Below, piece by piece: positions 791 through 53,363 of a stretch of DNA of 64,000 bases. The stretch is taken from NCBI RefSeq assembly GCF_025869515.1, contig NZ_JAOZVR010000010.1:1-64000 (forward strand). The letters are read 5' to 3'. The notes beneath the pieces were generated by a model. It worked only from the letters and a program-made list of their open reading frames with translations, searched no databases and was not told the origin of the DNA. Position 1 is the first letter of the stretch. The number at the start of each line of letters is the position of its first letter. The translations under genes and the position numbers were made by a program. The stretch is from Ferrovibrio sp. Lineage in GTDB: Bacteria; Pseudomonadota; Alphaproteobacteria; Ferrovibrionales; Ferrovibrionaceae.

Positions 791-2122
791 ATGACCACGC
801 ACGATCAGAATATGCGCATGACCCGGGTCGGCCCGGGCCAGCCGGCCGGCAAGCTGCTGCGCCGCTACTGGCAGCCGGTTGCGCTGATCGAGGAACTGGA
901 CGATCTGCGTCCGGTCCGTCCGGTCAAGCTGATGGGCCAGGATTTCGTGCTGTTCCGCGACGAGCAGGGCCGCTACGGCATGCTGGATCGTGACTGCCCG
1001 CATCGGGGCGCCGATCTTGCCTTCGGCCGGCCCGAAGATGGTGGCCTGCGCTGTCCTTTCCATGGCTGGCTGTTCGATGTGAAGGGCAACTGCCTGCAGA
1101 TGCCAGCCGAGCCTGAAGGCAGCAAGCTGTGTCAGCGCATCAAGCAGAAGAGCTATCCGGTGCAGCTGCGCAGCGGCATCCTGTTTGCCTACTTGGGCGA
1201 AGGCGAGCCGCCGGCGTTTCCCGATCTCGACTGTTTCGTTGCGCCCGACAGTCATGTCTTTGCCTTCAAGGGCCATATGGCCTGCAACTGGCTGCAGGCA
1301 CTCGAAGTCGGCATCGATCCGGCGCATGCCTCTTTCCTGCACCGCTTCTTCGAGGACGAAGACCCTAATGCCAATTACGGCCGGCAATTCCGCGCCAATT
1401 CGGCCGATTCAGACATGCCGATGACCCGCGTGCTGCGCGAATTCGAGCGGCCCAGCATCGAGGTCGAGCGCACCGATTACGGCATGCGGCTGATCGCGCT
1501 ACGCGAGATCAATGACAAGAACACGCATGTGCGCGTGACGAATCTTCTCTTCCCGCAGGCCTTTAATATTCCCTTGTCTGCCGAGATGACCATCACCCAG
1601 TGGCATATGCCGGTGGATGACGTGAACTGCTACTGGTTTGCCATTTTCACCAGCTTTTCCGGGCCGGTGAACAAGCAGCAGATGCGCGAGCAGCGGCTGC
1701 AGCTCTATACGCTGCCCGACTACATCCCGCGCCTGAACAAGTCGAACGACTACGGCTTCAACGCGATGGAACAGAAAACCCAGACCTATACCGGCATGGG
1801 CAACGACATCAACGTGCATGACCAGTGGGCGGTGGAAAGCCAGGGGCCGATCCAGGATCGTACCCGTGAGCATCTCGGCAGCACCGATAAGGCGATCATC
1901 AACTACCGCTCCATGCTGATGAAGGCGATCGACCAGGCGGAAAGCGGCAACGAACCGCCGCTGATGGTGCTGGATGAAACCGCCGCTCGCGCCATTCGCG
2001 GCCCGGTCACCATCGACGGCATTGCCCCGACGGCTACGTGGCGGGCATACTGGCGCGAGGCCGATGCGCGCAAACGCCAGGCCGCTCCGTGGCAGGCCCC
2101 TGCGCCTCTCGCGGCTGAATAA
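791..2122 (+). CDS. Rieske non-heme iron aromatic ring-hydroxylating oxygenase, alpha subunit
   Basis: A 443-residue oxygenase component. The Rieske cluster ligands are visible as C69-P-H71 and C88-P-F-H91, in the usual CxH...CxxH order. The mononuclear iron site follows as N166-W...D176...H179...H184, matching the NWLQALE...D..H....H pattern of the phthalate dioxygenase/vanillate demethylase group. These enzymes hydroxylate or O-demethylate aromatic substrates with electrons from a separate reductase, and none lies in this window. I chose the ATG at 791; the frame is open far upstream, but that part runs antisense into the IclR gene. It is followed after 27 bp by the GS-like gene, probably in one operon. 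The substrate cannot be read from sequence. Confidence 0.9.
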   Translation: MTTHDQNMRMTRVGPGQPAGKLLRRYWQPVALIEELDDLRPVRPVKLMGQDFVLFRDEQGRYGMLDRDCPHRGADLAFGRPEDGGLRCPFHGWLFDVKGNCLQMPAEPEGSKLCQRIKQKSYPVQLRSGILFAYLGEGEPPAFPDLDCFVAPDSHVFAFKGHMACNWLQALEVGIDPAHASFLHRFFEDEDPNANYGRQFRANSADSDMPMTRVLREFERPSIEVERTDYGMRLIALREINDKNTHVRVTNLLFPQAFNIPLSAEMTITQWHMPVDDVNCYWFAIFTSFSGPVNKQQMREQRLQLYTLPDYIPRLNKSNDYGFNAMEQKTQTYTGMGNDINVHDQWAVESQGPIQDRTREHLGSTDKAIINYRSMLMKAIDQAESGNEPPLMVLDETAARAIRGPVTIDGIAPTATWRAYWREADARKRQAAPWQAPAPLAAE

Positions 2123-2149
2123 GACGCCAGCTTTCTTCGGGGGATTTTC

Positions 2150-3589
2150 GTGGAGCGTTTCGTCGACCAGCACGGCCTGTGGACGCCGGAGCAGCACAAG
2201 GCTGCCAAAGCCGTGGAGAAGGAGGTCGCCGAGCGTGGCCTCGGTGTGATCCGCTTCTCGTTTGCCGACCAGCACGGCATCCTGCGCGGCAAGACGGTGG
2301 TGGCCGAGGAACTCGGCAGCGCCATGCACAGCGGCGTCGGCTTCACGACGACGCTGCTGGCGAAAGACACCTCGCATCGCACGGTCTTCCCGGTCTTCAC
2401 CAAGGGCGGCGGTTTCGGCCTGCCTGAGATGCAGGGCGCCGCCGATGTGCTGATGGTGGCCGATCCGACAACCTTCAAAGTATTGCCCTGGGCGCCGCAT
2501 ACCGGCTGGCTGCTCTGCGACCTCTATTTCGCCGATGGCCGTCCGGTGCCCTTCTCGACGCGCCAGCTCTATCGCGATGCGCTGAAGCGCGTGAATGACG
2601 CCGGCTACGACTATGTCGCCGGCCTGGAGGTCGAATTCCACGTTTTCAAGGTGGAAGACGCGAAGATGCGGCCCGAGGATGCCGGCCAGCCCGGCAATCC
2701 GCCGGAGGTCAGCCTGCTGACGCAGGGCTACAACTATCTCACCGAGCTGCGTTACGATCAGTATGACGAGATCTATGAAATCCTGCGCAAGGATATCCAG
2801 GCACTCGGCCTGCCGCTGCGCTCGATGGAAGTGGAATTCGGTCCGAGCCAGGCGGAATTCACCTTCCGCCCCGGCACCAATATGGAGTCCGCCGACACCA
2901 TGGTGCTGTTCCGCTCGGCCGCCAAGCAGATCGCGCGCCGCCATGGCCACCATGTCACCTTCATGTGCCGGCCCAAGCTGCCGAACATCTTCTCGTCCGG
3001 CTGGCACCTGCATCAGTCGTTGGTCGATCGCAAGACGCAGAAGAACGCCTTCATCCCCACCGAGGACGGCCAGCCGCTGTCACAGCTCGGCCGGTACTTC
3101 CTCGCCGGCCTGCTCGAACATGCGCCGGCCTCGGCGGCTTTCGCGGCACCCACCATCAATGCCTATCGGCGTTACCGCCCCTATTCGCTGGCGCCCGACC
3201 GTGCCATCTGGGGCAAGGATAATCGCGGCGTGATGTGTCGCGTTCTGGGCGCCAAGGGCGATCCGGCCAGCCGCATCGAAAACCGGCTGGGCGAGCCCGC
3301 CGCCAATCCCTATCTCTACATGGCGTCGCAGCTGCTCGCCGGCATGGACGGCATGGCGAAGCAGGCCGAGCCGCCGCCATCAGCCGATACGCCTTACGAG
3401 ACACCGGCACCGGCTTTGCCGCGTTCGCTGGAGGCGGCACTGGCAGCGCTGAAAGACAGCGCCTGCTATCGCGCCGGCTTCGGCGACACCTTTGTCGATT
3501 ACTTCCTGCATATCAAGCAGGCCGAGATCGCGCGTTTCCTGCTGGACGTCAGCGACTGGGAACATCGCGAGTATTTCGAGCTGTTCTGA
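2150..3589 (+). CDS. Glutamine synthetase-like amidoligase (GlnA paralogue)
   Basis: A 479-residue protein with the glutamine synthetase fold. The N-terminal beta-grasp part ends in QHGILRGKTV; the ATP/glutamate-binding signature appears as SSGWHLHQSL around residue 283; and the C-terminal part carries RIENRLGEPAANPYLY. It lacks the tyrosine adenylylation loop of housekeeping GlnA, and its context is catabolic, so it more likely joins glutamate (or another acid) to an amine, as gamma-glutamylanilide or gamma-glutamylpolyamine synthetases do. It uses a GTG start behind GGGGG and overlaps the next gene by one base (TGATG). Substrate amine unknown; the pairing with a Rieske oxygenase recalls aniline-type pathways. 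Confidence 0.85.
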   Translation: MERFVDQHGLWTPEQHKAAKAVEKEVAERGLGVIRFSFADQHGILRGKTVVAEELGSAMHSGVGFTTTLLAKDTSHRTVFPVFTKGGGFGLPEMQGAADVLMVADPTTFKVLPWAPHTGWLLCDLYFADGRPVPFSTRQLYRDALKRVNDAGYDYVAGLEVEFHVFKVEDAKMRPEDAGQPGNPPEVSLLTQGYNYLTELRYDQYDEIYEILRKDIQALGLPLRSMEVEFGPSQAEFTFRPGTNMESADTMVLFRSAAKQIARRHGHHVTFMCRPKLPNIFSSGWHLHQSLVDRKTQKNAFIPTEDGQPLSQLGRYFLAGLLEHAPASAAFAAPTINAYRRYRPYSLAPDRAIWGKDNRGVMCRVLGAKGDPASRIENRLGEPAANPYLYMASQLLAGMDGMAKQAEPPPSADTPYETPAPALPRSLEAALAALKDSACYRAGFGDTFVDYFLHIKQAEIARFLLDVSDWEHREYFELF

Positions 3590-45412: not shown

Positions 45413-46702
45413 ATGCTTGAGCGCTATTTCAAACTGTCCGAACACGGCACCACCGTGAAGGTCGAGCTGCTTGCCGGCCTCACCACCTTCCTCACCATGG
45501 CCTACATCATCTTCGTCAACCCGATGATCATGTCCAAGGCCGGGGTGGACCAGGGCGCGGCCTTCGTCGCCACCTGCGTGGGCGCCGCCTTCGCCAGCGC
45601 CCTGATGGGCCTGTGGGCCAAGTATCCGGTCGCGCTCGCGCCGGGCATGGGCCTCAATGCCTATTTCTCCTATGGCGTGGTGCTCGGCATGGGCCACACC
45701 TGGCAGGTGGCGCTCGGCGCCGTCTTCCTGTCCGGCGTGCTGTTCCTGATCATCAGCGTGCTGCCGATCCGGGAAAAGATCGTCAACGCCATTCCGATGT
45801 CGCAGAAGATGGCGATCGGTGCCGGCATCGGCCTGTTCCTCGCCATCATCGCGCTGGAAAATGCCGGCATCGTGGTGGCGCATCCGGCCACCATCGTCAC
45901 GCTCGGCAAGATCGGCGCGCCCACCGCGCTGCTGGCCTGCCTCGGCTTCGTGCTGATCATCGCGCTGGACTACCGCAAGATTCCGGGCGCCATCATGATC
46001 GCCATTCTGGCGATCACCGTGGTCGGCATCGGCATGGGCCTGTCGAAGTTCAACGGCATCGTCTCGGCACCGCCGAGTCTGGCGCCCACCTTCCTGCAGA
46101 TGGATATCATGGGCGCGCTGTCGGTCGGCCTGGTCTCCATCGTCTTCGCCTTCTTCATGGTCGATCTGTTCGACAATACCGGCACGCTGATCTCGATTGC
46201 GCCGCGTGCCGGCATGATGGACAGCCACGGCCGGCTCAAGCGCATCGGCCCGGCCTTCATCTCGGATTCGATCGCCTGCATGGTCGGCGCCGCGCTCGGC
46301 ACCTCCACCGTCACCAGCTACATCGAATCCGCCGCCGGCATCCGCGCCGGCGGCCGCACCGGCCTGACCGCCGTGGTGGTGGCCGTGCTGTTCCTGGTCT
46401 CGGTCTTCCTGGCGCCGCTGGCCACCAGCATCCCGGGCTTCGCCACCGCGCCGGCGCTGTTCTTCGTCGCCTGCGTGATGGCCGGCAGCATCGTGAAGAT
46501 CGACTGGGAAGACGTCACCGAATATGCCCCGGCCGTCGTCACCATGATCGCCATGCCGCTGACCTTCTCGATCGCCACCGGCATCGCGCTCGGCTTCATC
46601 GCCTATGTGGTGGCCAAGCTGCTGTCGGGCCGCGTCAAGGACGTGCATCCGATCATGGGTGTGCTGGCGATCCTGTTCGTGATCAAGCTGGCGGTCACGT
46701 AA
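45413..46702 (+). CDS. NCS2-family purine permease (AzgA/GhxP-like)
   Basis: A 429-residue permease with about 13-14 helices. The AzgA-like pattern is ELLAGLTTFLTMAYIIFVNP at the start, then LAPGMGLNAYFSY and the signature GTSTVTSYIESAAGIRAGGRTGLTA. It likely takes up guanine, hypoxanthine or adenine with protons. The ATG at 45413 has GGAG 8 bases before it. It is convergent with the GNAT gene. Confidence 0.92.
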   Translation: MLERYFKLSEHGTTVKVELLAGLTTFLTMAYIIFVNPMIMSKAGVDQGAAFVATCVGAAFASALMGLWAKYPVALAPGMGLNAYFSYGVVLGMGHTWQVALGAVFLSGVLFLIISVLPIREKIVNAIPMSQKMAIGAGIGLFLAIIALENAGIVVAHPATIVTLGKIGAPTALLACLGFVLIIALDYRKIPGAIMIAILAITVVGIGMGLSKFNGIVSAPPSLAPTFLQMDIMGALSVGLVSIVFAFFMVDLFDNTGTLISIAPRAGMMDSHGRLKRIGPAFISDSIACMVGAALGTSTVTSYIESAAGIRAGGRTGLTAVVVAVLFLVSVFLAPLATSIPGFATAPALFFVACVMAGSIVKIDWEDVTEYAPAVVTMIAMPLTFSIATGIALGFIAYVVAKLLSGRVKDVHPIMGVLAILFVIKLAVT

Positions 46703-46726
46703 TCCGGCAGCCAGCCGGCAACCGGC

Positions 46727-46750
46727 GGGCGGCGGGGCAACCTGCCGCCC
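46727..46750 (+). terminator. Weak terminator-like hairpin after the purine permease
   Basis: GGGCGGCGGG and CCTGCCGCCC form a ten-base stem with one mismatch around a GCAA loop, followed by GTTTGCATTT. The T-run is poor, so the call is tentative. Confidence 0.4.
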
Positions 46751-46758
46751 GTTTGCAT

Positions 46759-47034
46759 TTATGCCAGCAGGTCGGCGCTTTCCGGATGGCGCCGCAGCCA
46801 GGCGGCAGCATAGCTGCACAGCGGCACCAGCTTTTCATTCTGCGTGCGCGCCAGTTCGACGATGCCCTGCATCAGCCGCCCGGCGGCGCCGCTGCCGCGC
46901 AAGGCAACCGGCGCCTCGACATGCAGGATGGACACGATGCCATCTTTACGGCGGTAGCGCGCGAACACGGTCTGGCCTGCGACGGGCAGTTCATACTGGC
47001 TGCGTTCGATATTGTCAGTGACGATCTCGCTCAT
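46759..47034 (-). CDS. Short GNAT-type acetyltransferase (Gcn5-related, CG type)
   Basis: A 91-residue protein of the small acetyltransferase group PF14542. It has the acetyl-CoA-binding VEAPVALRGSGAAGRLMQGIV loop and the closing LVPLCSYAAAWLRRHPE, which is highly typical of this family. The substrate is unknown. It lies 55 bp after the EamA gene on the same strand. Confidence 0.85.
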   Translation of the reverse strand: MSEIVTDNIERSQYELPVAGQTVFARYRRKDGIVSILHVEAPVALRGSGAAGRLMQGIVELARTQNEKLVPLCSYAAAWLRRHPESADLLA

Positions 47035-47089
47035 GCCCCTAATCTGGGAAAGACGGGCGCGCCGGGCAAGCCCTTATTTTCGCTCACGC

Positions 47090-48001
47090 TTACTTGCGCA
47101 CGGCCAGGCCGAGCAGGATGCCGCCGACCAGCACGATCACGCCGATGATTTCGCTGCGCGACGGCTTTTCGCGGAACACCAGATAGGACATCAGGAAAGT
47201 GAAGACCATTTCGGTCATGCCCAGCATGCGCACATAGGCCGCCACCTGCAGCGCCATGGCGGTGAACCAGCCGGCCGAACCCGCTGCCGAAGCCATGCCC
47301 ACCACCAGGCCGGGTCGCCAGGCCTGCACCACGCGCTTCAGCTCGCCCGGCTCGCGCCAGAGCAGATAGGCCAGCATGAGCCCGATCTGAAGCACGATGG
47401 CATGCACAAGGGTCGTCGCTGCGGCCAGCGGCAGGAACGCTTCGTTGAGCGACAGCGAGGCGGCGCGGAAGCCGATGGCCGAGACGGCGAACAGCGCGCC
47501 CGAGCCGATGCCGATCAGCGCCGACTTTTCCATCCAGCCGAACAGGAAGGCGCGGATGGCGTTGTCGCTGCCCTTCAGCGAGATCAGCAGCACGCCGATG
47601 GTGCCGATCACGATGGCGGCGACGCCATAGAGACTCACCGGCTCGGCCAGGATCAGCATGCCGAAGGCGGCGGCCTGCAGCGCCTCGGTCTTGGAATAGG
47701 CGGTCGCCACGACGAAATTGCGCATCGACAGCGCGAGAATCAGCAGATTGGTGGCGAGGATCTGCGCCACGCCGCCCAGCGCGGTCCAGGCGTAAAACTC
47801 CAGATGTGTGCCGGGCAGTGGTTTGCCGGTGAAATACAGGCAGGCGGCGAGATAGACGATGGCGAGCGGCAGGCCATAGGCAAAGCGCACGAAGCTGGCG
47901 CCGTTGGTGCTGAGCCGGCCCTTCAGCTGTTTCTGCAGGCCGGTGCGCACGGTCTGGCAGGCGGCAGCCCAGATGGTGATCGGTATCCATGCCCATTCCA
48001 T
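47090..48001 (-). CDS. EamA/DMT-family transporter
   Basis: A 303-residue membrane protein with ten helices in two EamA repeats. The first repeat ends near residue 140; the second includes VHAIVLQIGLMLAYLLWREPGEL. Members export amino acids or other metabolites. The GNAT gene follows on the same strand and may be co-transcribed. A terminator-like hairpin for the upstream SRPBCC transcript lies at 48041-48081. Confidence 0.85.
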   Translation of the reverse strand: MEWAWIPITIWAAACQTVRTGLQKQLKGRLSTNGASFVRFAYGLPLAIVYLAACLYFTGKPLPGTHLEFYAWTALGGVAQILATNLLILALSMRNFVVATAYSKTEALQAAAFGMLILAEPVSLYGVAAIVIGTIGVLLISLKGSDNAIRAFLFGWMEKSALIGIGSGALFAVSAIGFRAASLSLNEAFLPLAAATTLVHAIVLQIGLMLAYLLWREPGELKRVVQAWRPGLVVGMASAAGSAGWFTAMALQVAAYVRMLGMTEMVFTFLMSYLVFREKPSRSEIIGVIVLVGGILLGLAVRK

Positions 48002-48040
48002 GCAGCATGGCCTAACCGGTCATCGCCAGGCGGGCAAATG

Positions 48041-48081
48041 AAAAGCGCTCCGGCGCCCCTTGAGGGGAATTCGCCGAAGCG
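48041..48081 (-). terminator. Terminator of the SRPBCC transcript
   Basis: On the minus strand, CGCTTCGGCG and CGCCGGAGCG pair with one mismatch, with an inner CCCC/GGGG stem and a TCAA loop. The downstream CTTTTC completes an intrinsic terminator about 31 bases after the SRPBCC stop codon. Confidence 0.65.
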
Positions 48082-48111
48082 TCTCTGCGTAGCCCGAGTC
48101 CGGGTCTTCGT

Positions 48112-48621
48112 TTACCTGCCGCCGGCCTTCAGCCGCGCGACCACCTCGATCAGCTGGTCGGCGACCTGGCCCCAGCCTTCGTGGAAGCCCATCTGTTCAT
48201 GGGCCTGCATGTCCTCGTCCGACCAGTGCAGTGCCCGGGCGGTGTAGCGCGTCCTGCCGTTGCCCAAGTCATCGAAGGTGGTGATCGCCACCATGAAGGC
48301 CTTTTCGCTCGGCTGCCAGCCCGGCCGGAAGGCATCGGTCGAGACGATGCGCTGGTTCGGCACCACTTCGAGGAAGACGCCGTCGAGCGGATATTCCGGG
48401 CTGCCCCCCTCTGCTGTGGCGGGGTCTTTCATCACAGCCTGGAAACGGCCGCCGGCGCGGAAGTCGATCTCGATGGCGGTGGTGGTCAGCGGCCTGGGCG
48501 CGAACCATTCGGTCAGATGCTCGGTCCAGGCCCGGTAGACCAGGGCGGGCGGCGCATCGATGTCGCGGGTCAGCGACAGTTCGCGGGACGGCGTCTGGGT
48601 TTTGTTGCTCATGGCGTTCAT
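48112..48621 (-). CDS. SRPBCC-family protein (AHSA1 type)
   Basis: A 169-residue START-like protein of the AHSA1 (Aha1 N-like) group, with the opening SLTRDIDAPPALVYRAWTE and closing MGFHEGWGQVADQLIEVV of this family. Members bind small hydrophobic ligands; the role is usually unknown. It is preceded by a TGTCGG-N17-CGTC promoter of the same form as that before the YCII/sigma operon, so it is probably a target of the sigma factor encoded next to it. The start at 48621 is chosen; 48612 is possible. Confidence 0.85.
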   Translation of the reverse strand: MNAMSNKTQTPSRELSLTRDIDAPPALVYRAWTEHLTEWFAPRPLTTTAIEIDFRAGGRFQAVMKDPATAEGGSPEYPLDGVFLEVVPNQRIVSTDAFRPGWQPSEKAFMVAITTFDDLGNGRTRYTARALHWSDEDMQAHEQMGFHEGWGQVADQLIEVVARLKAGGR

Positions 48622-48650
48622 CCTGTTGGTCCTTTCGGGGGTTGATACCG

Positions 48651-48681
48651 CAAGGACGGTGACGGGACGGGCGATCCGACA
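48651..48681 (-). promoter_or_regulatory. ECF42-type promoter of the SRPBCC gene
   Basis: Read on the minus strand: TGTCGG (48681-48676), 17 bases, CGTCCTTG (48658-48651). The ATG at 48621 is 33 bases beyond the CGTC. The same elements with the same 17-base spacing precede the YCII/sigma operon. TGTCGA-like -35 and CGTC-like -10 elements are reported for ECF42 sigma factors. Confidence 0.65.
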
Positions 48682-48710
48682 GCGCGCCGGAAATTTTTCC
48701 GGACATTCTT

Positions 48711-49961
48711 TCAGGCGATTTTCTGGCCCAGGCGATCCAGATGCTGGCGGATATGGGCGGCCTCGGCCGGGGTGCGTGCCAGGGCAATCGCCCGGTCGAA
48801 GGCGATGCGGGCTTCCTCGTCGCGGCCGAGTTCCTGCAGCAGGGCGCCCTGCACGCCGTAGAAATAGAAGTAGTTGGCGAGCGCCGGGGCCAGCGGCGCG
48901 ATCATCTCCAGGGCCGCCTCGGGCCCGGAGGCTTTCAGCACCGCCACCGCGCGGTTCAGCGTGATCACGGGCGAAGGCTGTATCTTCTCCAGCGTCGCAT
49001 ACAGCCGCTCGATCTGTACCCAGTCGGTGTCTGCCGCCTTGGCTGCCTGCGCATGCAAGGCCGCGATGGCAGCCTGCACCAGCATCGGCCCCGGCTTCGC
49101 GTGACGCATTGCCTTGTCGAGCAGGGCAAGGCCTTCGGTGATCATGCCGATATCCCAGCGGCCGCGGTCCTGGTCTTCCAGCAGTACGATCTGGCCCTCG
49201 CCATCCAGCCGCGTGTCGGCGCGGGCATGCTGCAGCAGCATCAGGGCCGTCAGTCCCATGATCTCGGTTTCGGAGGGGAACAGCCGCAGCAGCAGGCGGG
49301 AAAGCCGGATGGCTTCGTCGCAGAGCGGCTTGCGGATATGCGCCTCGCCGCCGCTGGCCGAATACCCCTCATTGAACAGCAGGTAGAGCATGGCGGCCAC
49401 CACACCCAGCCGCCCGGCGCGTTCCACCGCACCCGGCGTGGCGAATTCCGTGCCGGCCTCGGCAATGCGCCGCTTGGCGCGGGTGATGCGCTGTTCCATG
49501 GCGCTCTCGCTGACCAGGAAGGCGCTGGCGATCTCTGCCACGGTCAGTCCCGATACGATGCGCAAGGCCAGCGCGATCTGCTGTGTATTCGGCAAATCCG
49601 GATGGCAGCAGATGAACAGGAGGCGCAGGATATCGTCGCGATACTGCGCGCCATCCAGCCGTTCGGCCATGTCGTCCTGCACATCCTCGCCGTCGGTGAG
49701 GATGTCTTCCTCGGGCAGCGCCACATGCTTCCGGCTGCGCCGCCCCTCATCGACGCCGGAATTGCGCCCGACGAAAATCAGCCAGGCGGCCGCATCGCGC
49801 GGCGGGCCTTTTTCCGGCCAGCTCTGCAGGGCGCGCAGGCAGGCTTCCTGGAAAGCTTCCTCGGCGCGGTCGAGATCGCCGCGGAAAAAGCGCAGCAAGG
49901 CCGCCACCGCCTGCGGGCGGGCGGATTTGAGCGCCGTATCGATCCAGGTCAGGTCGGTCAC
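48711..49961 (-). CDS. ECF sigma factor of the ECF42 type with C-terminal TPR-like extension
   Basis: A 416-residue sigma-70-family protein. Sigma-2 lies in the first 90 residues (FRGDLDRAEEAFQEACLRALQSWPEKG and DAAAWLIFVGRNSGVDEGRR) and sigma-4 near residues 120-180 (ALALRIVSGLTVAEIASAFLVSESAMEQRITRAKRRI). The remaining 230 residues are a helical TPR-like extension (DUF6596) characteristic of the ECF42/COG4941 group. It uses a GTG start overlapping the stop of the YCII gene by 4 bp (GTGA). ECF42 factors have no anti-sigma factor and are known to work with DGPF (YCII-like) proteins; the pair here is typical. Confidence 0.93.
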   Translation of the reverse strand: MTDLTWIDTALKSARPQAVAALLRFFRGDLDRAEEAFQEACLRALQSWPEKGPPRDAAAWLIFVGRNSGVDEGRRSRKHVALPEEDILTDGEDVQDDMAERLDGAQYRDDILRLLFICCHPDLPNTQQIALALRIVSGLTVAEIASAFLVSESAMEQRITRAKRRIAEAGTEFATPGAVERAGRLGVVAAMLYLLFNEGYSASGGEAHIRKPLCDEAIRLSRLLLRLFPSETEIMGLTALMLLQHARADTRLDGEGQIVLLEDQDRGRWDIGMITEGLALLDKAMRHAKPGPMLVQAAIAALHAQAAKAADTDWVQIERLYATLEKIQPSPVITLNRAVAVLKASGPEAALEMIAPLAPALANYFYFYGVQGALLQELGRDEEARIAFDRAIALARTPAEAAHIRQHLDRLGQKIA

Positions 49962-50350
49962 GAAATCATGGTCTCCCGTTGCACGGTATCGGGGATGAAG
50001 GCACGCAGCGGCCGGATTTCAAAAGCACCGCTGCCGCCATCGCCGTCGCGGCCAGCCATGCCGCGCGCAACCTCGATGGCGTCCTCCAGCGAGGCGACGT
50101 CGATCACATACAAACCGAGCAGCTGTTCCTTGGTTTCGGCGAACGGCCCGTCCATCACCACGGGTTCGGCGCCATAGCGCACAGTGGTGGCGGCTGTGGT
50201 GTTCATCAGTCGCAGCACCGGGCCGAGCCGGCCCTGTTCGGCCAGCTTGTCGGTGACGACGCGGCGCCTGGCGATCACGGCGTCGTCCTTGGCTTTGGGC
50301 CAGGCTTCGACGGCGGCTTCGTCGTTGTAGCAGAGAATGGCATACAGCAT
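49958..50350 (-). CDS. YCII/DGPF-domain protein, partner of the ECF42 sigma factor
   Basis: A 130-residue YCII-related protein (COG3795). It begins MLYAILCYNDE and includes DGPFAETKEQLLGLYVIDV, the DGPF motif for which the group is named. It is encoded directly before the sigma factor, with an ATGA-type overlap, in one operon. The promoter TGTCGG-N17-CGTC lies 27-53 bases upstream of the start. The biochemical role of DGPF proteins is unknown; they are usual targets and neighbours of ECF42. Confidence 0.92.
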   Translation of the reverse strand: MLYAILCYNDEAAVEAWPKAKDDAVIARRRVVTDKLAEQGRLGPVLRLMNTTAATTVRYGAEPVVMDGPFAETKEQLLGLYVIDVASLEDAIEVARGMAGRDGDGGSGAFEIRPLRAFIPDTVQRETMIS

Positions 50351-50372
50351 CGGTTCGGTTCCTGAATCGGTA

Positions 50373-50403
50373 CAAGGACGCCGAACTATGGCCCAGGCCG
50401 ACA
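50373..50403 (-). promoter_or_regulatory. ECF42-type promoter of the YCII-sigma operon
   Basis: Read on the minus strand: TGTCGG (50403-50398), 17 bases, CGTCCTTG (50380-50373). The first base of the transcript would fall about 20 bases before the ATG at 50350. The match with the site before the SRPBCC gene covers 14 bases at identical spacing, suggesting autoregulation by the ECF42 protein. Confidence 0.65.
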
Positions 50404-50482
50404 CAGCGGGCGAAAAATAAATTGCCCCATGACAATGCGGGATGACATCGAGGGGCGTTTTTTGCGAGGCCGGATCGCAGAA

Positions 50483-50501
50483 ATCCCGGGATAAATCCCG
50501 A
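50483..50501. promoter_or_regulatory. Nested palindrome upstream of the alternative oxidase gene
   Basis: ATCCCGGGAT (50483-50492) is a perfect palindrome, and GGGATAAATCCC (50488-50499) is another sharing its right half, giving three spaced copies of the half-site. It lies 44 bases before the oxidase start. This is a plausible operator; the regulator is unknown. Confidence 0.35.
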
Positions 50502-50544
50502 TACGGAACGTTGATGTCACAACGCCCGAGCAACAGGAGCCGCC

Positions 50545-51192
50545 ATGCCCGACCGCAGCCAAGCCCAGCCGCATCATGTCCCGCAGAATCCGTCCGACCG
50601 TATCGCGCTGATCGTGGTGAAGACGCTGCGCTTTTTCGCCGACACATTCTTCGCCAGACGCTACGGCCACCGCGCCGTGGTGCTTGAAACCGTCGCCGCG
50701 GTGCCCGGCATGGTCGGCGGCATGCTGGTGCACCTGAAAAGCCTGCGCCGCATGAGCGACGACCGCGGCTGGATTCATACCCTGCTGGAAGAGGCCGAGA
50801 ACGAGCGCATGCATCTGATGGTCTTCGCCACCATCGCCAAGCCCAATGCGCTGGAACGCCTGCTGGTGCTGCTGGTGCAGGGCGCGTTTTTCAACAGCTT
50901 CTTCGTGCTGTATCTGCTGGCGCCGAAAACCGCACATCGCGTGGTCGGCTATCTGGAAGAGGAAGCCGTGGTCAGCTACACGCATTATCTGGAGGAGATC
51001 GACGCCGGCCGGCATCCCAATATCCCGGCGCCGCAGATCGCCATCGACTACTGGAAACTGCCGGCCGAAGCCACGTTGCGCGACGTCGTGCTGGTCACCC
51101 GTGCCGACGAGGCCAAGCACCGCGACGTCAATCACCGCTTCGCCGATATCCTGGCCGGCGATCGCCCCGGCGCGAAACCGGCGGAGGCCTGA
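50545..51192 (+). CDS. Alternative oxidase (AOX) diiron quinol oxidase
   Basis: A 215-residue membrane-bound diiron oxidase. The iron ligands are in E48 ([12 protein letters not shown]), E87 and H90 ([10 protein letters not shown]), E139 ([10 protein letters not shown]), and E189 and H192 ([12 protein letters not shown]), exactly the AOX four-Glu/two-His pattern. It reduces oxygen to water with quinol, bypassing complexes III and IV, and is cyanide- and NO-resistant. Only a minority of bacteria carry it. A ribosome site (AGGAG) precedes the ATG. It is divergent from the YCII-sigma operon and convergent with the Bug protein gene (6 bp). Confidence 0.93.
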
Positions 51193-51198
51193 CCGTCG

Positions 51199-52185
51199 TT
51201 ATTCGATCGAGGCGCCGGTTTCCTTCACCACCCTGGCCCATTTGTCGATCTCGGCCGCGATGAAGCCGGCATAGGCATCCGGTGTGCCGCCGCCCGGGAT
51301 ATAGCCGCCGGCGGCATAGCGTTCCCGGATCGGCGCTTCGCCAAGCGTCGCGTTCATCGCCTTGTTGATCTGCATGACGATTTCGGCCGGCGTCCTGGCC
51401 GGCGCCGACAGGCCCATCCAGCCGATCGCGGAGAAACCGGGAAAACCGGATTCCGCCACGGTCGGCGCATCGGGATACAGCGGATTGCGCGCCGGGCTGG
51501 TCACCGCCAGCACCTTCAGCTTGCCGCTGCGCACATGCGGCAGGGCGATATCGACATTGATCATCACCGCATTGACCTGTCCGCCGATCACATCGGTGAT
51601 CGCCGGTGCGGCGCCGCGATAGGGCACATGCTGCAGCTTGATGCCGGCCGTGTGCTGCAGCATCGCCATCGCCAGATGGCCCGACGAGCCGCTGCCGGGG
51701 CTGGCGCAGGCGATCTGGTCGGGCTTGGACTTCACCAGCGCGATGAAGTCCTTGAAAGTCTGGGCCGGGAAATCGGCCGAGACCAGCAGGGCATTGGGCA
51801 CCGAGCCCATCTGGCCGATATGCACGAAGTCCTTGCGCGAATCGTAGGTCATCTGGCTGTACAGCGCGTGGTTCATCGCATTCTGCCCGTTGCCTGACAG
51901 CAGCAGCGTGTAGCCATCCGGCGCGGCGCGTGCCACCGCATTGGCGCCGATATTGCCATTGGCGCCGGCGCGGTTCTCCACCACGAAGGGCTTGCCGAAA
52001 CTCTGGCTGAAGCTCTGCGCGAACAGTCGCGCCAGCACATCGTTGCTGCCGCCGGCGGGGAAGGGCACCACGATGGTCACCGGCCGCTCCGGCCAGGTTG
52101 CGGCAAAGGCCAGACGCGGCGCCAGTGCGGCGCCGCCGAGCGCGGCCAACGCGGTAACGACGGTGCGGCGGGTTATCTTGGTCAT
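51199..52185 (-). CDS. Bug-family tripartite tricarboxylate transporter substrate-binding protein
   Basis: A 328-residue periplasmic binding protein of the Bug/TctC family. A Tat-like signal (MTKITRRTVVTALAALGGAAL) ends near residue 28. The family signatures WPERPVTIVVPFPAGGSNDVLAR and VENRAGANGNIGANAVARAAPDGYTLL are complete. The TctA and TctB membrane subunits are not in the window. It sits 32 bp after the enolase-superfamily gene in one operon, so it may supply that enzyme's acid substrate. Confidence 0.93.
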   Translation of the reverse strand: MTKITRRTVVTALAALGGAALAPRLAFAATWPERPVTIVVPFPAGGSNDVLARLFAQSFSQSFGKPFVVENRAGANGNIGANAVARAAPDGYTLLLSGNGQNAMNHALYSQMTYDSRKDFVHIGQMGSVPNALLVSADFPAQTFKDFIALVKSKPDQIACASPGSGSSGHLAMAMLQHTAGIKLQHVPYRGAAPAITDVIGGQVNAVMINVDIALPHVRSGKLKVLAVTSPARNPLYPDAPTVAESGFPGFSAIGWMGLSAPARTPAEIVMQINKAMNATLGEAPIRERYAAGGYIPGGGTPDAYAGFIAAEIDKWARVVKETGASIE

Positions 52186-52217
52186 AGCGGGTTCCTCCGG
52201 TTTTTATGGGTATGCGG

Positions 52218-53363
52218 TTACGGCGCGCAGCGCCATGTCGCCGTCAGCCAGGGCGCCAGGCGTTCGGGGTCGAGATCCAGCCCGGTGCCCGGTGCCTCCG
52301 GCACGGCCATCATGCCGTCGCTGTCTAAGGTCATTTCGCCGGCCACGGTCAGCAGCGGATTGGGCGTGGCATCGATTTCCATATAGGGATAGGGCGCCGG
52401 CCCGCCGCCGCGCCGCGCCGGCAGCAGGGCCGCCATCTGCAGGGCCGCGCGCTGGTTGACGATGGTGCCGAACACATGCGGCATCACCGGCAGGTCCCAG
52501 GCCGCCGCCAGCGCCGCGACGCGCTGGAAACCGCTATAGCCGCCACAAACGGTCAGGTCGGGCTGCAGAATCGAGAAAGTGCCGGCGACCAGGAAATCGC
52601 GGAAGGCGGCCAGGCTGCCCAGCGCCTCGCCGCCGGAAATCGCGGTGGGCACGGCGGCGGCCACCGCCGCAGTGCCGGCGATATCCTCGGGCAGCACCGG
52701 TTCCTCGATCCACAGCAGCTCGGCATCCTGCATGCGGCGCGCAGACTCGATGGCGGCGCGCGCCGTGTAACCCTGGTTGATATCGACCATCAGGCCGATA
52801 TCGGGGCCGACATGCCGGCGCAGGCTGCTGGCCATCACGCCATCGGCGCGCGGATCGAAACCGGCGCGCGGTTTGATGGCGCGGAAGCCGCGTTTCAGAT
52901 AGGCGTCGGTCTCCTTCAGATACTGCCCGTAGGGATCGCTGCCCTCGGCAATGAACGGCCCGCTGGCATAGGCAAAGACCTGATCGCGCAACCGCCCGCC
53001 CAGCATGGCGGCCACGCTGGTCTGCTGCGCTTTGGCGGCGATATCGTGCAGGGCCATGTCGAGCGCCGAGATTGCCATCATGGCGACGCCGCGCCGGTCA
53101 TAGCCGATGCCGGCCATCATGCGGTCCCACAGCCGGCCGTAGTGCAGCGGCGATTCCCCCAGCACCATGCCGGCCAGTCGCGCCTGGACCAGCGCGCCGG
53201 CCGCATGCGGCGATGCGAATACCTCGCCCCAGCCGCTGAGGCCGGAATCGGTGATCACCTGCAGCAGCAGGAAATCGCGGCGGCGGATGAAGGTGCGGGC
53301 ATTGCCGATCGGCGGCGTGGGCGAAAAGCCGAGCTGATAGCCGCGAATCTCGACAACCTTCAC
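52218..53363 (-). CDS. Enolase-superfamily enzyme, mandelate racemase/muconate lactonizing type
   Basis: A 381-residue enolase-superfamily protein. The acid/base residue lies in AIKPRAG, where the usual KxK appears as K-P-R. Metal ligands are D in LMVDINQG, E in WIEEPV and E in ISGGEAL, and a His in MPHVFGT fits the mandelate racemase branch. It probably dehydrates or racemises a sugar or hydroxy acid. It uses a GTG start at 53363, shares an operon with the Bug protein gene, and is divergent from a LysR gene. Confidence 0.88.
   Translation of the reverse strand: MKVVEIRGYQLGFSPTPPIGNARTFIRRRDFLLLQVITDSGLSGWGEVFASPHAAGALVQARLAGMVLGESPLHYGRLWDRMMAGIGYDRRGVAMMAISALDMALHDIAAKAQQTSVAAMLGGRLRDQVFAYASGPFIAEGSDPYGQYLKETDAYLKRGFRAIKPRAGFDPRADGVMASSLRRHVGPDIGLMVDINQGYTARAAIESARRMQDAELLWIEEPVLPEDIAGTAAVAAAVPTAISGGEALGSLAAFRDFLVAGTFSILQPDLTVCGGYSGFQRVAALAAAWDLPVMPHVFGTIVNQRAALQMAALLPARRGGGPAPYPYMEIDATPNPLLTVAGEMTLDSDGMMAVPEAPGTGLDLDPERLAPWLTATWRCAP

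Follow-up and report, generated by a model that had tools for sequence, protein, structure and literature searches.

ECF42 sigma factors are widespread, yet the signal to which they respond and the roles of their partner proteins are still unexplained. In Streptomyces venezuelae, where they were the subject of work by Liu (2018) and Wu (2019), these factors reportedly use a promoter of the TGTCGA/CGTC form. Another member comes from Pseudomonas putida, which belongs to the Gammaproteobacteria. In the accessible part of a review (PMC8999054), the TPR extension of the S. venezuelae factors is reported as essential for activity, and P. putida ECF-10 is connected with stress from antibiotics and oxidants, as a factor that confers sensitivity. 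The genomic context of P. putida ecf-10 has been called similar to that of RpoE10 by Lang et al. (2018), who studied Sinorhizobium meliloti (PMC6180224; statements on S. meliloti here and below come from the accessible part of that paper). Over-expression of RpoE10 in S. meliloti induces SMc01149, whose transcription start was mapped behind TGTCGG-N17-CGTCCTTG, at the ninth base after CGTC. SMb20475-SMb20474 is likewise raised by RpoE10. The operon SMc01151-rpoE10, which begins with a YCII gene, was unresponsive to RpoE10, and the motif found there overlaps the mapped start. TGTCGG is the -35 form of three promoters of the RpoE10 group printed in the same paper, and the deletion of its ECF factors had no major effect on the growth of S. 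meliloti (PMC6180224).

The window (the whole 64 kb stretch of DNA analysed here) carries a locus that resembles these systems in its gene content. The first gene of the operon encodes a YCII (DGPF) protein of 130 residues (49958-50350, minus strand; PF03795, E 1.4e-16, 61 bits). It lies directly upstream of a sigma factor gene of 416 codons (48711-49961, minus strand; PF04542, PF08281 and PF20239), the start of which overlaps the YCII stop. Both sigma2 and sigma4 domains are present in the product, with PF04542, PF08281 and TIGR02937 all above cut-offs. Its C-terminal extension holds a DUF6596 domain at residues 184-285 (118 bits), the only DUF6596 match in the genome (an assembly 95% complete), and TPR matches near residues 368-396 that fall below the Pfam cut-offs. 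The marks of the ECF42 group are thus found together: a TPR-containing C-terminal extension some 200 residues long, an adjoining YCII (DGPF) gene, and a target promoter of the TGTCG[AG]...CGTC type. The assignment of the sigma factor to the ECF42 type, as in the earlier note, is borne out by its sigma2/sigma4 and DUF6596 domains, the weak TPR and the overlapping upstream YCII gene. Downstream on the same strand, after a gap of 89 bp from the sigma stop to the next start, comes a gene for an AHSA1-type SRPBCC protein of 169 residues (48112-48621; PF08327, E 6.4e-25). Seven other genes were scanned around the sigma gene (YCII, AHSA1, EamA, acetyltransferase, AOX, TctC and permease) and no anti-sigma gene was found among them. 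One of these neighbours is an alternative oxidase gene (50545-51192, plus strand; PF01786, E 1.9e-87), divergent from the YCII-sigma operon. Of the four other genus genomes with ECF42, two (L076 and L078) have a close homologue (84-85%) at this locus.

Two copies of TGTCGG-N17-CGTCCTTG lie on the minus strand at 50403-50373 and 48681-48651, exactly where the earlier note had placed them, and they do share 14 identical bases and the same 17-base spacer length. This form has two exact matches in the 64 kb window and none in 100 dinucleotide shuffles. The first copy, the ECF42-type promoter of the YCII-sigma operon, consists of a -35 element TGTCGG (50403-50398), the 17-base spacer and a -10 region CGTCCTTG (50380-50373), 22 nt before the YCII ATG. 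The second, the AHSA1 promoter, lies in the gap that separates the sigma stop codon from AHSA1, 29 nt before the AHSA1 ATG, and its 14 bases are identical to those of the mapped SMc01149 promoter. When modelled on SMc01149, transcription is predicted to start near 50368 for the operon; for AHSA1 the predicted start is near 48646. The distance of five to eight bases after CGTC that had been set as a test appears too tight, since the S. meliloti start is the ninth base. As to the proposed likeness to a TGTCGA/CGTC promoter, it holds for the CGTC part and fails for the TGTCGA part, the -35 element being TGTCGG in the window. An A/T tract, AATTTATTTTT, is located upstream of the -35 element of the operon promoter (50413-50423, minus strand) and looks like an UP element; the AHSA1 promoter is preceded by a tract of its own, AAAAATTT (48691-48698, minus strand). 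The latter lies inside a small inverted repeat, CCGGAAATTTTTCCGG (48687-48702, plus-strand reading). No sigma-70 type promoter was found in 48550-50600, and no RNA family in an Rfam search of 46000-52500.

The link with S. meliloti could be drawn through a related genome. A search with part of the SMc01149 promoter returned a single record, that of Ensifer sp. USDA 6670 (L119), where the 39 printed promoter bases recur letter for letter. The gene behind them encodes an AHSA1 protein 59% identical (98/166) to that of the window, and genes for YCII and for a sigma factor 67% identical (274/412) to that of the window lie upstream of it. From this promoter and gene order in Ensifer, SMc01149 is probably the counterpart of the window AHSA1 gene. 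The Ensifer AHSA1 gene is followed by a SnoaL_3-Glyoxalase fusion gene (1534-2400, minus strand). The feature that would mark an RpoE10-type locus, an SRPBCC gene after the sigma gene with a TGTCGG-N17-CGTCCTTG promoter of its own, is present in the window. Each of the five ECF42-bearing genomes among the ten genus members searched (that of the window included) has the exact AHSA1 promoter, and the S. meliloti counterpart is induced, with a mapped start; AHSA1 thus very likely belongs to the ECF42 regulon, as had been proposed. This main claim of the earlier note was anticipated, since SMc01149 is induced by RpoE10 from a promoter with the same 14 bases: control of an SRPBCC gene by an ECF42 factor is already backed by experiment and largely in print, although not so named in the accessible part of that paper (PMC6180224). 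Searches of the accessible literature returned nothing that joins YCII, a sigma factor and SRPBCC, or AHSA1 and an ECF sigma factor. Autoregulation, which had also been read from the twin sites, can only be called possible: RpoE10 had no effect on the YCII gene of S. meliloti. The -10 region of the YCII-sigma promoter is the full CGTCCTTG in the window and CGTCTTCA in Ensifer.

AHSA1 might instead be the third gene of a single YCII-sigma-AHSA1 transcript, in which case only the upstream promoter would matter and the second site would be a functionless leftover. The common strand and the 89 bp gap would allow such a transcript, and a search of the minus strand between sigma and AHSA1 gave no terminator-like site followed by a run of T. 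This arrangement is nevertheless very unlikely, because the second site is kept in half of the loci compared while the gene behind it changes. Among 18 ECF42 loci searched with the loose form TGTCG[AG]-N17-CGTC (no shuffled control), a site precedes YCII in 14, a second one is found 399-438 bases past DUF6596 in nine, and eight have both. Behind the second site come AHSA1 in four loci of the genus, VOC in three and SnoaL in one (L090), the gene at the ninth locus (L073) being without a family label. In addition, a separate start was mapped for the S. meliloti counterpart, and RpoE10 induces this gene while leaving the YCII-sigma promoter unaffected (PMC6180224).

The two sites were described earlier as a local regulon, which is too narrow. 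The assembly of this genome (4.89 Mb, 126 contigs, 95% complete) holds four sites with the exact 14-base pattern and 17-base spacer, two of them on other contigs, and each of the four is followed at 22-41 nt by a gene for YCII, AHSA1 or VOC. On contig C85, the third site (14463-14433) precedes a second YCII gene by 41 nt, and this gene comes after a row of ArsR, SRPBCC and AHSA1 genes. On contig C88, the fourth site (39161-39131) precedes a PhnB-like VOC gene (PF06983) by 33 nt, with ArsR-AHSA1-GFA running in the divergent direction. Both distal sites (L071, 3970-5985; L072, 3625-5572) adjoin ArsR-type regulators with AHSA1/SRPBCC genes, which suggests two control layers on the same gene families. 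The genome scan with TGTCGG-N16-18-CGTC that had been proposed as a check does not separate such sites from background (101 matches in the whole genome vs 92 for the reversed control); in the window this looser pattern gives five matches vs 0.8 expected, which is too weak alone. Two relaxed forms were tried and rejected. The 14-base pattern with up to two mismatches has 50 matches genome-wide, below the 74 of the reversed control, and the variant TGTCGR...CGTCYNNG adds four sites in this genome, three of which have a testable reading frame and none of these three a regulon family.

The exact form was then followed across genomes, where it tracks the sigma gene. Among ten members of the genus, sites number three to five in each of the five ECF42-bearing genomes and are absent from the five that lack the gene, of which three are 72-87% complete. 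In 96 relatives, 22 carry a DUF6596 sigma factor and 16 a TGTCGG-N17-CGTCCTNG site, 13 of these 16 being among the 22. The class of the window is taken to be the Alphaproteobacteria, in view of Ensifer, the record in which this operon was found, and of a Caulobacter control genome. A set of 387 genomes of the class, which takes in some of the 96 relatives, has the site in 34 of 72 genomes with the sigma factor vs 14 of 315 without (p 5e-18; such p-values overstate independence, the genomes being related), and in 25/49 vs 12/214 once collapsed to genera. The site totals in this set are 93 vs 14, and two or more sites occur in 28 ECF42-bearing genomes vs none of the others; the reversed-pattern control gives 21 vs 52 sites. 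The association was found again in 114 held-out genomes of the class, with a site in 37 of 53 ECF42-bearing genomes vs 9 of 61 without the gene, 179 vs 10 sites in total, and at least two sites in 34 genomes vs one, which holds two. In a sample of 397 genomes of the phylum, 107 have the DUF6596 domain itself. Beyond the class, 236 genomes of the phylum showed no association (5/45 vs 12/191, p 0.33), and 38 of the 72 ECF42-bearing genomes of the class have no site of the exact form; together, these two results indicate that the exact form is lineage-specific. The largest count per genome is 13, in a genome of family f167. Four genomes (G609, G519, G561 and G599) hold 9-13 exact sites each, with DUF899, DoxX, RibD_C, GFA and SMP-30 genes behind them.

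This co-occurrence also bears on the idea that the sites serve another sigma factor, such as one of the ECF41 type, or both factors. The S. meliloti ECF41 promoter (SMb20029, TGTCAC...CGTC) does share TGTC and CGTC with them (PMC6180224), but the sites follow the DUF6596 sigma gene in the 387 genomes, then in the 114, and within the genus, which makes a different reader most improbable.

The genes behind the sites are of few kinds. In ECF42-bearing genomes of the class (Ensifer being counted with them), 90 of 105 unique sites precede regulon families, as defined after seeing this first set, and 15 precede none. The families are YCII (31), VOC (27), AHSA1 (16), SnoaL (3), TfoX_N (3), another SRPBCC family (2), DoxX (2) and DUF1428 (2), with one site each for RibD_C, DUF899, YceI and an alpha/beta hydrolase. 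For genomes without the sigma gene, the figure is one site of 15, which precedes AHSA1 where a contig of G138 ends. In the held-out genomes, 46 of 64 unique sites (three of them from genomes without the sigma gene) were assigned by BLAST to family labels of the first set; the GST and BNR labels are not counted, which leaves 44 of 64, and 20 sites precede no regulon family, 18 of them unassigned. AHSA1 (11), DoxX (8), DUF899 (6), VOC (6), RibD_C (5) and YCII (4) lead there, and MFS transporters are among the genes behind held-out sites outside the labelled families. One locus (L239; G491:C11:94450-94537) has two exact sites back to back, which face AHSA1-like and PhnB-like VOC genes in opposite directions. 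A chance resemblance in GC-rich DNA might be argued from the background-level counts of TGTCGG-N16-18-CGTC and from the single site held by each of 14 among the 315 genomes without the sigma gene. It is refuted for practical purposes by the absence of the 14-base form from the shuffles, by the four of four genome sites that precede the same families, and by the reversed-pattern control, in which none of 30 loci matched a labelled family (21 of the 30 had a reading frame to test).

A common anatomy could be recognized in the 90 regulon-family sites. An A/T tract, A-rich then T-rich, occupies the 18 to 10 bases upstream of TGTCGG, located where an UP element would be. A/T runs of at least five are found at 75 of the 90 sites vs 7 of 29 other sites, and the contrast is weaker for held-out sites (30/46 vs 7/18, p 0.09). 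A G directly follows CGTCCTNG in 81% of the 90 sites, and the median distance from site to start codon is 28 nt.

Taken together, it is highly probable that the window sites are promoters read by RNA polymerase with the ECF42-type sigma factor encoded between them, as part of a regulon scattered over the genome. The holoenzyme would read TGTCGG as -35 element, a fixed 17-base spacer and CGTCCTTG as -10 element, probably helped by the A/T tract directly upstream. Four or more units would be transcribed: YCII-sigma, AHSA1, the second YCII gene on C85 and the PhnB-like VOC gene on C88. The products are small proteins whose folds (YCII, SRPBCC and VOC) are those of ligand binders or enzymes. The activity of the sigma factor is probably set by its C-terminal TPR-like extension, a property recorded for the group in the accessible part of the review (PMC8999054). 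Feedback of the factor on its own operon, its signal and the chemistry of its products are what we infer on top of this. The original observation is true and was read correctly in outline, and it is wider than the earlier note held.

What the YCII protein does was approached through its conserved residues. In 31 motif-linked YCII proteins, the D-G-P-F, E, G, E and R positions are nearly or fully invariant (the DGPF Asp in 30 of 31), and no column has His in 30% or more. The TftG-type dehydrochlorinase uses a catalytic His-Asp dyad, according to the accessible part of its description (PMC7641849). A YciI/TftG-type His-Asp enzyme was thus rejected as a candidate, no conserved His being found for the dyad as given in this description. 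The only solved relative found for YCII is PA1349 (1s7i), and a search with DGPF as a literature term gave, among the matches listed, no title on a DGPF protein. Alternatively, YCII could sense a ligand and, as partner of the TPR extension, gate the sigma factor, so that only the distal genes would be effectors. The overlap of its gene with the sigma gene, the near-invariant D, E, G and R positions and a lack of conserved His that leaves no TftG-like dyad would suit such a partner. A role of YCII in regulation has indeed been proposed from conserved neighbourhood and a fused protein, in the accessible part of the review (PMC8999054). An effector fits better with the extra YCII gene behind the same promoter on C85. 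It also fits better with the presence of YCII genes behind 31 of the 105 sites, some of these genes being more like the C85 one than the sigma-linked one; the sensing role is thus possible but rather doubtful. In the window AHSA1, three His are shared by 12-13 of 17 relatives and aligned with His of the solved homologue 1xfs, and they read as a subfamily mark. The mean pLDDT of the AHSA1 structure prediction (two-row alignment) is 58, too low to place these conserved His or to search folds.

The likeliest role for the regulon that we would infer is a cytosolic response to small molecules that are toxic or reactive, by which they are bound, converted or sequestered. The sensitivity recorded for P. 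putida ECF-10 and the lack of a major growth effect in S. meliloti without its ECF factors, both from the accessible parts of the sources, weaken a simple protective role. On a broader scale, alphaproteobacterial ECF42 may serve one guild of small proteins, encoded at scattered places, as its dedicated sigma factor, and the guild would form a single coordinated cytosolic response to toxic small molecules; this is a tentative proposal, to which we give somewhat less than even chances. The guild would comprise YCII, AHSA1/SRPBCC, VOC/PhnB, SnoaL, DoxX, DUF899, RibD_C, DUF1428 and TfoX_N, each unit behind an A/T tract and TGTCGG-N17-CGTCCTNG, with one to thirteen sites per genome carrying the form. 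Its likelihood was lowered by the 'sensitivity' of the review and the weak held-out A/T contrast. If true, it gives families without known function a shared trigger. No account of a strict regulon that extends over the class and includes an A/T element was found in the accessible literature, and one may be in print in the subscription papers on ECF42 and ECF reclassification. With the strict pattern, a regulon list becomes readable from genomes, and YCII/DGPF, DUF899, DUF1428, RibD_C-like and DoxX proteins are tied to one switch. The compact promoters are usable as reporters in chemical screens for the inducing signal, so that a vague 'stress' factor becomes testable.

Among the described systems, S. 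venezuelae ECF42 shares with the window the C-terminal TPR extension and YCII (DGPF) partner genes, in the accessible part of the review (PMC8999054); the window differs by its TGTCGG -35 and CGTCCTTG -10 elements and by targets beyond YCII. P. putida ecf-10 (Tettmann 2014) is likewise an ECF42 factor in the same source (PMC8999054), but its host lies outside the class of the window, where the exact motif form has no ECF42 association. As far as the accessible part of Lang et al. goes, S. meliloti RpoE10 shares the YCII-sigma pair and, behind it, a gene whose product is predicted to bind hydrophobic ligands (AHSA1 in Ensifer), with TGTCGG-N17-CGTCCTTG in front of this post-sigma gene. Also shared are TGTCGG...CGTC at a distal target operon, targets of the glyoxalase type, and a neighbourhood in which no anti-sigma gene was identified. 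The differences are that AHSA1 is followed in Ensifer by a glyoxalase-like gene, which the window lacks, and that, unlike those of S. meliloti, the distal targets in the window genome are a YCII and a PhnB-like gene.
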